Shown here piece after piece: positions 28,444 through 40,994 of a stretch of DNA of 64,000 bases. The position numbers and the translations under genes were made by a program. Under the pieces are notes generated by a model. The model was not told where the DNA came from. It worked only from the letters and a program-made list of their open reading frames with translations, and did no database searches. Source of the DNA: Prolixibacteraceae bacterium (GTDB taxonomy: Bacteria > Bacteroidota > Bacteroidia > Bacteroidales > Prolixibacteraceae); contig CANJNY010000002.1 in NCBI GenBank assembly GCA_947475715.1, positions 1-64,000 on the forward strand. The letters run 5' to 3'. Within the stretch, counting starts at the first letter, position 1, and every line of letters begins with the position of its first letter.

Positions 28444-28843
28444 TACTAAAAACCTTTTAAAAATTAAACGGCAAATTTAACTTATTCTCATTTAACCTTG
28501 AAATCATTAAAGTAATGTTAATAATTTAATAAACTTAACAATATTATACAAGAAATAAATTAAAATTAAACGATTAAAAAATGATAAATTAGAATCATTA
28601 AAAGATGTTTTAAAAATTTTCGCTTCCTTGATGATTATTTCAATATCTCAAAATTACCAATAAATAGTGATTTTGTAGAGGAATTTTATTTTTTATTCTA
28701 AATCAAATGCAATTTAATCAATTTATAGTCAGACTTTTATCAGATTAAACCATTTTCTTGATATTTTTCTTTGATTTTCCGGTTTTTGTCCCTATCTTTG
28801 CAATCTGTTAAAAAACAAAGACGTTCTTAAATAAACGATATAT
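28444..28843. other. 400-base AT-rich gap before the tRNA
   Basis: I see no open reading frame, hairpin or repeat of note in this AT-rich stretch apart from the promoter at 28770-28800. Part of it presumably is the upstream region of the phosphorylase gene, but no TAnnTTTG motif is visible close to that start. Confidence 0.6.
28770..28800 (+). promoter_or_regulatory. Full Bacteroidota promoter for initiator tRNA
   Basis: TTTG at 28770-28773, a 19-base spacer and TAtcTTTG at 28793-28800 match both parts of the Bacteroidota consensus (-33 TTTG, 19-21 bases, -7 TAnnTTTG). Transcription would start about 7 bases further on, giving a 5' leader of roughly 37 bases before the tRNA at 28844. This is one of the two best complete promoter matches that I found in the window. 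Confidence 0.75.
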
Positions 28844-34495: not shown

Positions 34496-34511
34496 TGTTC
34501 CACGTGGAACG
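34496..34511. promoter_or_regulatory. parS-like palindrome, site 1
   Basis: TGTTCCACGTGGAACG contains the perfect 14-base palindrome GTTCCACGTGGAAC at 34497-34510. Compared with the broad bacterial parS consensus (TGTTNCACGTGAAACA) it has the core CACGTG and differs at two bases. It lies in the gap between apt and mnmG. A second site is at 40979. Confidence 0.5.
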
Positions 34512-36395
34512 TCACCTGCCTAACAAAACAAGAAGAACATTAATATCGCTCGGAGAAACACCTGGAATTCTAGCAGCCTGACCAATTGTTTTAGGTTTAA
34601 CTCTATCCAGCTTTTGTCTTGCTTCGGTAGATAACGATTCTATTAATTCATAATTGAATTTATCACTGATGAGAACATTTTCTAACCGTGATAACTTCTC
34701 GGCCACAATTGATTCTCTATCAATATAACCGGCATACTTAAGCAGAATTTCTGCTGATTCAAAAACTTCCTGACGCAGAGATATATTAATTTCACCAAAT
34801 AATTTGTTAAGAGATGGGAGAAGATCCACAAAATCAAATATCGATAATTGAGGCCTTCGTATTAAGGCATCGAGTTTAATATTTTGTCGCAAACCTGTAG
34901 TCCCTTTTGAAATAAGTAAAGTATCTACATCTGAGGGTCTTACACTGAAATTTTTACAAAAATTGATAACCTTATATTTATATTCGATCTTATCCAGTAG
35001 TCTGTCATGCCGATCTTGATCAGCTAACCCCAGTTTAAAACCTAAAGGAGTTAATCTCTCATCCGCATTATCCTGCCGTAATAAGAGCCTGTATTCTGCT
35101 CGCGAAGTAAACATGCGATAAGGTTCATCCACCCCTTTAGTAACTAAGTCGTCAATTAGAACTCCAATATAGGCATCACTACGAGTTAGAACAAATGGAT
35201 CAGCACCAACAACTTTTAAATGCGCATTAATACCCGCGATCAAGCCCTGCGAACCCGCTTCTTCATACCCCGTAGTCCCATTAATTTGACCCGCAAAAAA
35301 CAGGTTTCCAACTAACTTAGTCTCTAAAGTATGATTTAATTGAGTTGGTAAGAAATAATCATATTCAATCGCATACCCGGGTTTAAGAATCTTAGCGTTT
35401 TCCAGGCCAGGGATACAGCGCATAGCATCATTTTGTACTCTCCAGCTCAATGAAGAAGAAAATCCATTCAAATAATACTCCAATGAATCGACACCTTCAG
35501 GCTCTAAAAACAGTTGATGCTTATCTTTATCCGCAAAAGTGATAAGCTTAGTTTCAATACTAGGACAATATCTGGGCCCTAAACCTTGAATAGTGCCATC
35601 AAACAGAGGACTTTCCTTAAATCCTGATTCTATGATACGATGAACCTGCTGATTTGTGTATGTAATATAACAAGGCAAGTCCGGCAAATTATTATTCAGA
35701 AAAGGTTTAAAACTAAAATGGGATTCACTACTATCACCATCTTGTCTAATTAGCTTAGAAAAGTCGATCGTCCTTTTATCAATACGAACAGGAGTTCCGG
35801 TCTTCATTCTTCCAGCGCTAAAACCACAGGATATTAATTGCTCCGTGATTCCAACAGAAGATGGCTCAGAAATTCTTCCTCCTGAAATTTTAGATGATCC
35901 AAAATGCATTAATCCATTTAAGAAAGTACCACTGGTAATTATAACACATTTACTCCTAAAGCCAACTCCGATATCGGTATTGACACCAACCACAATATTT
36001 TCCTCAAAAACTAAAGAAATAACGGTTCCCTGCCAAAAATCGATGTTATTTGTGTTCTCCAAATAGTATTTCCAAGTAGCTGAGAATTTATTCTTATCAC
36101 ATTGAGCCCGCGGACTCCACATTGCCGGCCCCTTAGAGAGGTTTAACATTCTGAACTGAATTGATGACAAATCAGTAACGATTCCCATCATACCACCCAG
36201 TGCATCAATTTCTCTAACTATTTGACCTTTAGCTATTCCGCCTACTGCAGGATTGCAACTCATTTGAGCCATCCGTGACAGATCCATAGTAATCAATAAA
36301 ACTTTTGATCCTAACTTAGCTGCTGAGGAAGCAGCTTCACAACCTGCATGTCCTCCACCAACAACAATGATATCATATTCATTCAATACATCCAT
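34512..36395 (-). CDS. mnmG: tRNA uridine 5-carboxymethylaminomethyl modification enzyme MnmG (GidA)
   Basis: With MnmE it installs the cmnm5 group at U34 of several tRNAs. The FAD-binding N-terminus is IIVVGGGHAGCEAASSAAKLG, followed by the conserved SCNPAVGGIAKGQIVREIDALGG, TGTPVRIDKRTIDF and, at the C-terminal half, the signature LFFAGQINGTTGYEEAGSQGLIAGINA and MFTSRAEYRLLLRQDNADERLTPLG. The 627-residue length is normal. Its start overlaps the end of ybeY by 17 bases, so they share an operon. MnmG is often close to the origin of replication in bacteria. Confidence 0.97.
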   Translation of the reverse strand: MDVLNEYDIIVVGGGHAGCEAASSAAKLGSKVLLITMDLSRMAQMSCNPAVGGIAKGQIVREIDALGGMMGIVTDLSSIQFRMLNLSKGPAMWSPRAQCDKNKFSATWKYYLENTNNIDFWQGTVISLVFEENIVVGVNTDIGVGFRSKCVIITSGTFLNGLMHFGSSKISGGRISEPSSVGITEQLISCGFSAGRMKTGTPVRIDKRTIDFSKLIRQDGDSSESHFSFKPFLNNNLPDLPCYITYTNQQVHRIIESGFKESPLFDGTIQGLGPRYCPSIETKLITFADKDKHQLFLEPEGVDSLEYYLNGFSSSLSWRVQNDAMRCIPGLENAKILKPGYAIEYDYFLPTQLNHTLETKLVGNLFFAGQINGTTGYEEAGSQGLIAGINAHLKVVGADPFVLTRSDAYIGVLIDDLVTKGVDEPYRMFTSRAEYRLLLRQDNADERLTPLGFKLGLADQDRHDRLLDKIEYKYKVINFCKNFSVRPSDVDTLLISKGTTGLRQNIKLDALIRRPQLSIFDFVDLLPSLNKLFGEINISLRQEVFESAEILLKYAGYIDRESIVAEKLSRLENVLISDKFNYELIESLSTEARQKLDRVKPKTIGQAARIPGVSPSDINVLLVLLGR

Positions 36396-36819
36396 TTTCT
36401 AAAAACTTAAACATCAAAATAAATTTAGTTTCCTGTTCACTCATAATCTGCTTCTCCATATCAGTAGCATCAGTATAACCCAATAAATGAAGAACCCCGT
36501 GAATAATAACTCTTAATAATTCATCATTAAATAACACATCAAACAATTCTGAATTTTCTAATACACGATCTAAACTTATAAAAATATCTCCTGAGATAAT
36601 ATTCCTATCACAATAATCAAATGTAATTATATCTGTAAAATAGTCATGATTAAGAAACTTCTTATTTATATCAATCAAATATGAATCCTTACAAAAAATA
36701 AACGTAATATCACCTGTAATTTTACCAAAATCCTTAATTACCAATTTCAACCATTTCTTAACTATAGAATAGGAAAGAGGAGGTTTTTTAAGTTTTTCTG
36801 TATTAAAAGAAATAGCCAT
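36379..36819 (-). CDS. ybeY: Endoribonuclease YbeY (rRNA maturation factor)
   Basis: A zinc-dependent RNase for 16S rRNA 3'-end maturation. The 146-residue protein has the motif VIHGVLHLLGYTDATDMEKQIM, comparable to the HGxLHLxGYDH zinc motif; as in Bacteroidota homologues, the third ligand appears to be an Asp after GY rather than His. The strand and helix before it (FITFDYCDRNIISGDIFISLDRVLEN) are typical. It is coupled to the upstream RsbW-like gene (TAATG overlap at 36817-36821) and to mnmG (17-base overlap). Confidence 0.93.
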   Translation of the reverse strand: MAISFNTEKLKKPPLSYSIVKKWLKLVIKDFGKITGDITFIFCKDSYLIDINKKFLNHDYFTDIITFDYCDRNIISGDIFISLDRVLENSELFDVLFNDELLRVIIHGVLHLLGYTDATDMEKQIMSEQETKFILMFKFLENGCIE

Positions 36820-37371: not shown

Positions 37372-37809
37372 TTAAATTATAACGGGAATTTTTTGAACTC
37401 TCAATAAATGCCTACCACCATCAAAATCTTCATTAAGAAATACATCAATAATATCGATAGCTTCCGAAACAGAGACAAATCTGGCCGGCAAAGAACAAAC
37501 ATTCGCATCATTGTGATGTCTGGCCAAAGATGAAACAGTTGAGTTCCAACATAAAGCTGATCTAACACTTTGATGTTTATTAATAGTCATATTAATACCA
37601 TTGCCACTTCCGCAGAAAACCAATCCCAATGTAATATCTTGATTATCAATTGATTTACCTAATAAATGAGCGAAATCGCTGTAATCACAACTTTCCTCAG
37701 AATTACAGCCGTAATCAATAATTTCATAATCTTTATTTGACAAATAATCAATAATTTCACATTTTAACTGATAACCCGCATGGTCGGAGGCTAAACCTAT
37801 TTTTTTCAT
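37372..37809 (-). CDS. rpiB: Ribose-5-phosphate isomerase B
   Basis: Interconverts ribose-5-phosphate and ribulose-5-phosphate in the pentose phosphate pathway. The 145-residue protein has the RpiB/LacA N-terminus KKIGLASDHAGYQLKCEIIDYL, YSDFAHLLG, the active-site Cys in VFCGSGNGINMTINK and the RHHNDANVCSLPARF motif with the catalytic His. The phosphate-binding arginine RVQKI is near the C-terminus. The gap to the RsbW-like gene is 142 bases. It is the last leftward gene before the very AT-rich region at 37.8-38.3 kb. Confidence 0.95.
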   Translation of the reverse strand: MKKIGLASDHAGYQLKCEIIDYLSNKDYEIIDYGCNSEESCDYSDFAHLLGKSIDNQDITLGLVFCGSGNGINMTINKHQSVRSALCWNSTVSSLARHHNDANVCSLPARFVSVSEAIDIIDVFLNEDFDGGRHLLRVQKIPVII

Positions 37810-38329
37810 TATACAAAAGATAAAAATTTATAATACCTTCATAATAAACTATTTAAATAAAATAAAAGGATATTAACAAATGATGTTAATTAAGAGTTGA
37901 AAGAAAGTATTAATAAAAAATAATCAAAACAATTGAAGCCCTTCATAACAATTAAAAGATAAAAAGAAATAATAAATTAAAACTAATTACCAAAATTTAA
38001 TTGACAAAATAAAACAATCAAATAGTAGTCCTTTTACGAGGTCACAAAGATATGAACAACTCGTTAATATAACACTAAAAAGCGTTAAACTAATACGATA
38101 TAGTGTTAATACGGGAAAATAACAGGTTGAGAACTATACAAAACAGAAAAACCAAAAATAAAACGAATAATTTTTAACCATATAAACCGCACATAAACAT
38201 TAAAATAATTTATAGATTTAATAAAAATTAATAATAATATTAGTTTGTAACCTTTATTGGATTAAATTGCAGAATGATAGAATAGGTTTAAATTTGCATG
38301 GATTTAATAAAATATAAACTGATTTAGGG
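37810..38329. other. Very AT-rich divergent intergenic region, candidate replication origin
   Basis: No gene of reasonable length is present in these 520 bases. Three 60-base rows counted by eye (starting 37861, 37921 and 38161) hold only 10, 11 and 11 G+C. It contains the inverted repeats ATTAACA/TGTTAAT (37872-37890) and TAACACTA/TAGTGTTA (38070-38108), and the heptamer TAATACG twice (38091 and 38107). Genes to the left run leftward and those to the right mainly rightward. I find no TTATCCACA DnaA box in it, so the origin call is only a suggestion. Confidence 0.35.
38266..38296 (+). promoter_or_regulatory. Bacteroidota promoter for the CheY-like gene
   Basis: ATTG at 38266-38269, 19 bases and TAaaTTTG at 38289-38296 match the consensus except for the first base of the -33 element. 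The gene starts 34 bases beyond the -7 element. Confidence 0.55.
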
Positions 38330-38716
38330 ATGAATTTAGAGGATAGATTATCAATTCTTTTAGTTGAAGACAATGAACTCAATCAAAGACTTATGAAAAT
38401 AAGTTTAGCTAGATTTAATTATAAAGTAACTATAGCAATAAATGGATTAGAGGGAGTTAGTATGTTTAGTAAGGAAAAATTTGACTTAATATTGATGGAT
38501 ATAATGATGCCAATTATGGATGGTTATGAATCAACTCAAAATATAAGAAAAATTGAGGCGACGAATCCAGAATTAGGGCACATACCAATTATTGCATTTA
38601 CTGCTAATACGATAAACAATGACCGTGAAAAATGTATTAAAGGAGGGATGGATGATATACTTGAAAAACCTTTTGATATAATTAAGTTTCGTAAGATTCT
38701 ACTTTCGTTACCTTAA
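38330..38716 (+). CDS. CheY-like single-domain response regulator
   Basis: A 128-residue receiver domain without an output domain. The acidic pocket is in LLVEDNELNQ (Glu13, Asp14), the phosphoacceptor is Asp57 in LILMDIMMPIMDG, and Lys113 in ILEKPF is conserved. The Thr/Ser switch is Thr91 in FTANT. The N-terminal motif resembles receiver domains of hybrid kinases. It is 45 bases before ruvB and may be transcribed with it. No kinase is encoded nearby, so its signal source is unknown. Confidence 0.92.
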   Translation: MNLEDRLSILLVEDNELNQRLMKISLARFNYKVTIAINGLEGVSMFSKEKFDLILMDIMMPIMDGYESTQNIRKIEATNPELGHIPIIAFTANTINNDREKCIKGGMDDILEKPFDIIKFRKILLSLP

Positions 38717-38761: not shown

Positions 38762-39796
38762 ATGAATGATATGGAAGATTTCATTGATTTACGGGGAGGA
38801 AACACGGATAGTGCAGATTTTGAGTCTGATAACAAGCTAAGACCTCTTAAATTCAGTGATTTCAGTGGTCAAAATAAAATTGTAGAGAATCTTAAAATAT
38901 TTGTCAAGGCCGCTGTAATGAGAGGAGAAAGTCTTGATCATGTACTGTTACATGGGCCGCCAGGATTGGGTAAAACGACTTTATCGAATATAATATCAAA
39001 CGAATTAGGGGTAAATTTAAAACTGACTTCTGGTCCTGTACTTGATAAGCCAGGTGACCTAGCCGGAGTATTAACAAATCTTGAGAATAATGATGTATTG
39101 TTTATTGACGAGATTCATCGGTTAAGTCCGGTTGTAGAGGAGTATTTGTACTCAGCAATGGAAGATTATCGAATTGATATTATGATCGATAAGGGACCCA
39201 GCGCTAGATCAATTCAGCTTGATCTTAATCATTTTACCTTAATAGGGGCCACAACAAGAAGTGGCTTACTTACAGCGCCTTTAAGAGCCAGATTTGGAAT
39301 TAATTGTCATTTGGAATACTACGATATTGATGTTTTAACCAATATTGTAAAGCGTTCTGCCAAAATTCTGGATATTCAAACTTATGAGGATGCAGCAATA
39401 GAAATTGCAAGACGAAGTCGTGGTACGCCTAGGATTGTTAATGCATTACTACGCAGGGTGCGTGATTTTGCTATGGTGAAAGGGAATGGAATCATAGACC
39501 TTGAAATTACAAAGTATGCACTTGAGGCTTTAAATATTGATAAATATGGACTTGATCAAATGGATAATAAGATTTTAAGTACTATAATTGATAAATTTAA
39601 AGGTGGCCCTATAGGATTAACTACTATTGCTACGGCAGTGGGAGAGGATGCGGGAACCATTGAAGAGGTATATGAACCATTTTTAATTAAAGAGGGTTTT
39701 TTAAAGCGCACTCCAAGGGGCAGGGAAGCGACAGAACTGGCATTTTCACATTTGGGAAGGTTGAATTTAAAATCAAATCAACAGACGTTATTTTAG
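38762..39796 (+). CDS. ruvB: Holliday junction branch migration ATPase RuvB
   Basis: Hexameric AAA+ motor that with RuvA migrates Holliday junctions. The 344 residues contain [22 protein letters not shown], the Walker A motif [12 protein letters not shown], Walker [11 protein letters not shown], the sensor I region [20 protein letters not shown], the arginine finger in this region, and the winged-helix C-terminus ([28 protein letters not shown]). All are diagnostic. ruvA and ruvC are not in the window. It converges with the next gene, only 6 bases from its stop. Confidence 0.97.
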
Positions 39797-40978: not shown

Positions 40979-40994
40979 TGCTTCACGTGGAACA
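40979..40994. promoter_or_regulatory. parS-like palindrome, site 2
   Basis: TGCTTCACGTGGAACA, read in reverse complement, is TGTTCCACGTGAAGCA, differing from the Bacillus-type parS TGTTCCACGTGAAACA at a single base. It lies in the gap between the glutaminyl cyclase and the flippase gene, upstream of that gene's promoter motif. The partner site is at 34496. Confidence 0.55.

Follow-up and report, generated by a model that had tools for sequence, protein, structure and literature searches.

In this uncultured Prolixibacteraceae bacterium, which its RuvB relatives assign to the Bacteroidales, chromosome replication very probably starts in the 520-base intergenic gap at positions 37810–38329, the proposed oriC, as judged by sequence comparison. 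The window, i.e. the whole stretch of 64,000 nucleotides analyzed here, comprises bases 1–64000 of a 115,532-bp contig (C2) in a draft genome (G000) of 5.77 Mb; with that genome in 315 contigs, skew over contig C2 took the place of whole-genome skew. An origin at this gap had been suggested in a preliminary description of the window, and this reading is supported by the skew minimum of the contig, the synteny and sequence of the gap in relatives, skew minima on the scale of whole chromosomes and an enrichment of parS sites. The proposed origin is an ordinary kind of site, the less ordinary sides of which are a variant of the DnaA box and an adjoining response regulator. Our literature search found no described Prolixibacteraceae oriC; DoriC lay outside its scope, and absence from print is not claimed. 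Table 1 lists the features of the locus.

The preliminary description had placed the gap at a strand switch, and the gene orientations agree: 17 of 19 genes between 16.5 and 37.8 kb lie on the minus strand, and 11 of 13 between 38.3 and 50.2 kb on the plus strand. The AT-richness and the nearby mnmG that it reported were also confirmed. The G+C content of the gap is 20.8%, compared with 36.9% for the window, and the lowest-G+C stretch of 520 bases in all 64 kb begins at 37798. The heptamer TAATACG does occur twice (38091 and 38107), but in full it is not conserved in the alignment of relatives; inverted repeats are likewise present, but the long ones are imperfect (75–80%). Both were dropped as key features. 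Sigma-70 promoters were in no excess (9, compared with a shuffle mean of 13.7), and an Rfam search of the gap matched no family. A second very AT-rich stretch, with 11% G+C over 100 bases, lies at 28501–28620 near tRNA-Met and carries no skew change.

Table 1. Features of the proposed origin and its surroundings (window coordinates)
Feature	Position	Strand	Basis or remark
parS-like site TGTTCCACGTGGAACG, between apt and mnmG	34496–34511	.	1 mismatch to TGTTYCACGTGRAACA
mnmG	34512–36395	–	TIGR00136, 792 bits
ybeY	36379–36819	–	TIGR00043
rpiB, left neighbor of gap	37372–37809	–	NF004051 and synteny
Proposed oriC, intergenic	37810–38329	.	Between rpiB (–) and response-regulator gene (+)
TATNAAC, DnaA-box-like	37871–37877	+	Core of TTATNAACA
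TATNAAC, DnaA-box-like	38051–38057	+	
TATNAAC, DnaA-box-like	38063–38069	–	
TATNAAC, DnaA-box-like	38105–38111	–	
BUS-like block	38172–38203	+	Degenerate tandem DnaA-box-like sites, GC spacer (38189–38192), AT-rich repeat
TATNAAC	38181–38187	+	Within BUS-like block
Proposed DNA unwinding element	38193–38242	.	Lowest duplex stability of any 50 bp on the 115.5-kb contig (nearest-neighbor energies)
Candidate Bacteroidetes-type promoter of response regulator	38267–38296	+	TTG 38267–38269, TAAATTTG 38289–38296; read from sequence
TATNAAC	38313–38319	+	Close to response-regulator start codon
Stand-alone response-regulator receiver gene, right neighbor of gap	38330–38716	+	PF00072
ruvB	38762–39796	+	NF000868
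parS-like site TGCTTCACGTGGAACA, right of ruvB	40979–40994	.	1 mismatch to TGTTYCACGTGRAACA

We computed the cumulative G–C skew, for which a minimum within the gap had been proposed as a check, and found the minimum of the window at 38198, a position that remains the minimum over the whole of contig C2. We then compared 23 loci of the family, each about 17–40 kb long and oriented on ruvB, several of which share one genus and are thus non-independent. A locus from another family of the order (G051) had been excluded ahead of this count, as its rpiB lies far from ruvB and the 40 kb around rpiB contained no ruvB. The genus labels of loci L093, L095 and L100 are assumed. In the comparison with related genomes suggested in the preliminary description, the position, synteny and sequence of the gap proved to be conserved. 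For 21 of the 23 loci, the local skew minimum was in the orthologous gap, directly upstream of the response regulator or, where the regulator is absent (G028 and G082), of ruvB; it fell outside the gap in L113 (+4127 from ruvB) and L100 (–19). The gap is flanked by the response regulator and ruvB on one side and by ybeY and mnmG on the other, the latter 1.9–9.3 kb from ruvB. The gene rpiB adjoins the gap in the genus of the window, G028 and G082; most other genera have it on the far side of ruvB. The gap of G003 (L011:1933–3112) measures 1180 bp, compared with the usual ~505–575 bp, probably owing to an insertion on the rpiB side, and its motif block (described below) is kept 167 nt before the response regulator.

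To place the gap on whole chromosomes, twenty evenly spaced 20-kb samples, the first of them at the gap, were taken from each of three closed genomes. The skew was positive in nine samples and then negative in 11 for G078, and positive in eight and then negative in 11 of 12 for G067, with one clean minimum at the gap in each case. G119 is a weaker case, with 11 positive samples followed by eight negative out of nine and smaller values. The detrended cumulative minimum fell in bins 0, 0 and 1 of 20 (G078, G067 and G119, respectively) and the maximum in bins 9, 8 and 10. Samples taken on an even grid from a fourth closed genome (G028) gave a disordered profile, in which the sampled minimum was at ~2.97–3.18 Mb and the maximum at ~1.8 Mb, with the gap at 3.99 Mb. 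Inversions would explain this disorder, and the point opposite the maximum would lie at ~4.0 Mb; we counted this profile as equivocal.

The parS-like palindromes reported on either side of the gap were both verified, at 34496 and 40979 with one mismatch each, and contig C2 has no other match when up to two mismatches are allowed. Contig C20 encodes ParB. The most constant of the sites is that next to mnmG, found in the same location in most relatives; the site to the right of ruvB has an equivalent in G001, G002, G004, G078 and G067. At least one match was present in 22 of the 23 loci, and none in the 20 kb examined of G020. At the same threshold, the origin loci (805,034 bp) gave 59 matches and the chromosome-sample controls (1.6 Mb) gave 3, although the 59 are not independent events, as related genomes share sites. 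A parS-like site beside mnmG was also seen in the outgroup loci L098, L104, L105 and L147, which have no skew minimum just upstream of ruvB; on this sequence pattern, the link between parS and mnmG may be older than the present address of the origin.

These data bear on two other readings of the locus. The gap might be no more than an extended AT-rich promoter region shared by divergent genes where the strands switch, with the skew arising from the direction of transcription. It does part two such genes and contains a sequence that could plausibly serve as the promoter of the response regulator, and gene strand does contribute to the skew: at third codon positions (plus strand), values left of the gap were –0.189 for minus-strand genes and –0.05 for plus-strand genes, and those to the right +0.377 for plus-strand and +0.191 for minus-strand genes. 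The sign, however, tracks the side of the gap even in genes on the wrong strand, and intergenic DNA gave –0.065 on the left and +0.065 on the right. Because the sign is kept at third positions whichever strand the gene is on, and between genes as well, gene direction is not the explanation of the skew. Moreover, in G078 and G067 the skew change spans the whole chromosome, and parS sites are enriched at the locus. A promoter region and nothing else is thus largely refuted already, and we regard it as very improbable.

Alternatively, the true origin might lie elsewhere, for instance at dnaA, the gap being the edge of a rearrangement or an origin no longer in use. The sampled minimum of G028, which is off the gap and some 100–300 kb from the dnaA of that genome, is in keeping with this idea. 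However, the G028 samples flanking dnaA are both negative (–0.20 and –0.16), so that there is no change of skew at dnaA, and the single clean minima of G078 and G067 are at the gap. In several genera the minimum also stays with this gap, and in some outgroups it goes with the sequence motif and not with ruvB. An origin at another site is therefore extremely unlikely. In the window's own genome, dnaA is on a contig other than C2; the cited passages of PMC4755523 describe oriC in Bacteroidetes as commonly far from dnaA.

For the gap as origin, we searched for the elements through which it would be opened. The unwinding module termed BUS consists of DnaA-boxes, a spacer and DnaA-trios in Bacillus subtilis and others (PMC6669920, PMC8287927, in the portions consulted), and candidates were reported in 1755 of 2070 origins (PMC8287927). 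Relatives share a block of this appearance ~70–180 nt before the first rightward gene, e.g. TTTACACCCTATCAACAGCCTATTATTATTTA in G033 and ATTAACAGTTATCAACAGCACATAATAACCAA in L093. With a matrix built from 12 sites of other genera, picked by eye near gaps, the top match on both strands of contig C2 was 38172–38203 (19.0 bits, followed by 12.9 bits), which none of 5000 gap shuffles equaled. The best plus-strand match was 147–167 nt before the response regulator in all 12 genus gaps examined; it was matched by none of 1000 shuffles in eight of them and by 2–10 in G001, G014, G005 and G008. When one genus at a time was left out, the best match of the locus was in the gap for 21 of 23 loci, the exceptions being G001 and G067, and the G067 gap contained no motif match. 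In a whole-genome search with the 12-sequence model, the best match was in the gap for 10 of 20 genomes (G117, G082, G028, G126, G070, G120, G004, G016, G007 and G119); three of these, G004, G016 and G007, belong to the window's genus and had been held out of the model, out of 11 genus members searched. For G000 itself, the gap site was not among the matches listed (150 of 6924 candidates scored).

Among outgroups, 11 of 80 named RuvB loci scored at least 17 bits. In seven of these 11, no more than 130 nt separate the block from the skew minimum of its locus, and in two more no more than 550 nt, the exceptions being L113 and L165; L093 and L113 had been used to build the matrix. Block and minimum lie together at 2.5–3.3 kb from ruvB in L110, L111 and L143, which indicates that the block tracks the skew change and not ruvB. 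In L110 and L143, rpiB is also near the block. Most of the Bacteroidaceae and Prevotellaceae loci among the 80 have neither the block nor a skew minimum at ruvB; accordingly, this origin address is confined to part of the order.

The strict BUS rule, as stated in the part of PMC8287927 consulted, calls for a box that departs at up to two positions from TTATCCACA or from the box of the species itself, no more than 16 bp from at least three DnaA-trios. On the plus strand of the 420 nt before the G000 response regulator, it gave no match with the E. coli box, and with TTATNAACA as box its matches in G000 were at background. The boxes of the G000 block carry several mismatches, and a run of three trios is absent where the published rule requires it. 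With the E. coli box, the rule was matched in 13 of 23 loci, compared with 0.83 matches expected per 520 bp, and therefore discriminates poorly here. In several relatives, the block reads TATNAACAG-GC-CTATTATTA, the complement of 3΄-GATAATAAT-5΄. Immediately past the GC spacer of the block begins the 50-bp stretch with the lowest stability on the contig, and the 60-base windows poorest in G+C (8.3%) begin at 38191 and 38199.

The preliminary description was correct that the gap has no cluster of canonical DnaA boxes: the exact canonical box is absent from it. The search with one mismatch recommended there yielded 102 matches in the window, compared with a shuffle mean of 85, and the sole match to touch the gap was at its left edge (37809–37817); we set these sites aside as uninformative. 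In the 12 genus gaps, k-mer counts gave GTTAATA 26 times (4.8 expected; 11 of 12 gaps), ATTAACA 22 times (6.2 expected), GTTCATA 11 times (1.1 expected) and GTTGATA seven times (1.2 expected), all of which are forms of TATNAAC(A). TATNAAC itself, a pattern selected after inspecting these gaps, that of G000 included, occurs 58 times in them, compared with a mean of 12.9 and a maximum of 24 in 1000 shuffles. The gap of the window contains six copies, a number reached in 2 of 1000 shuffles and unsurpassed by any 520-base stretch in the window (11.5 per kb, compared with 1.06 per kb in the window). Outside the genus, the pattern was enriched in most loci; it was unenriched in the G028 gap (one site, 658 of 1000 shuffles) and before ruvB in G067 and G082. 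The form TATNAACA differs from TTATCCACA in having A instead of C at position 6 and a free position 5. From these counts, the origin appears to use altered DnaA docking sequences, and such a variant could explain the failure of standard box searches here. The DnaA of G000 (477 aa, contig C54) has the domain IV sequence GGKDHATVLHA, which we take to be close to that of E. coli DnaA.

We infer the following course of initiation. DnaA, encoded elsewhere in the genome, would bind the cluster of non-canonical boxes with the core TATNAAC and the tandem block at 38172–38188. A DnaA-ATP filament would then grow rightward over the short GC spacer onto the AT-rich strand at ~38193–38242 and open it, after which helicase would be loaded and two forks would depart in opposite directions. 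The new origin copies would be segregated by ParB acting at the parS sites that flank the gap at ~3.5 kb (left) and 2.7 kb (right).

The locus can be set beside known systems, compared here as the cited passages describe them. The oriC predicted for Prevotella intermedia OMA14 (PMC4755523), compared for position and boxes (predictions of the DoriC/Ori-Finder type), is like the gap at a GC-skew transition and not beside dnaA. However, it is reported to have multiple E. coli-type boxes with one mismatch allowed, whereas the gap lacks them and is enriched in TATNAAC. The B. subtilis-type BUS likewise has tandem box-like sites, a short GC spacer and an AT-rich repeat, but boxes and trios are degenerate in G000 and fail its published search rule (PMC8287927). 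In the gidA(mnmG)–mioC oriC of E. coli and Yersinia (PMC10225481), mnmG is near the origin as it is here; in our locus, ybeY, an RsbW-like gene and rpiB separate it from the gap, and the other side is occupied by the response regulator and ruvB instead of mioC. As in the origin-proximal ParB–parS centromere (PMC7333895), parS lies within a few kb of the origin and ParB is encoded, whereas contig C2 has just two near-consensus sites. Judging by its cited description, Ori-Finder 2022 (PMC10225481) would score most features of this origin.

The gap gives an uncultured genus an oriC that can be tested and, through the synteny of the response regulator–ruvB and ybeY–mnmG sides, does the same for most Prolixibacteraceae examined, in which dnaA is no origin marker. 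Growth-rate estimation from metagenome read depth and origin-based shuttle plasmids both require a known origin position.

In 21 of the 23 loci of the family, the stand-alone response regulator separates the gap from ruvB; it could be a regulator of initiation. Its probable promoter, assigned by what we take to be the Bacteroidetes consensus, is 25 bp to the right of the least stable 50 bp, and most relatives retain its AAATTTG part. That this branch of Bacteroidales combines a shifted DnaA box (TTATNAACA for TTATCCACA), a matching unwinding block and firing coupled to a phosphorelay through a dedicated regulator, the promoter of which lies beside the melting element, is a doubtful proposal. 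Among genus members, the response regulator is 45–86% identical, compared with 87–92% for RuvB. On the far side of ruvB, a glutamine cyclotransferase-like gene (PF05096; 39803–40885) opposes the local direction, as it does in most of the family.
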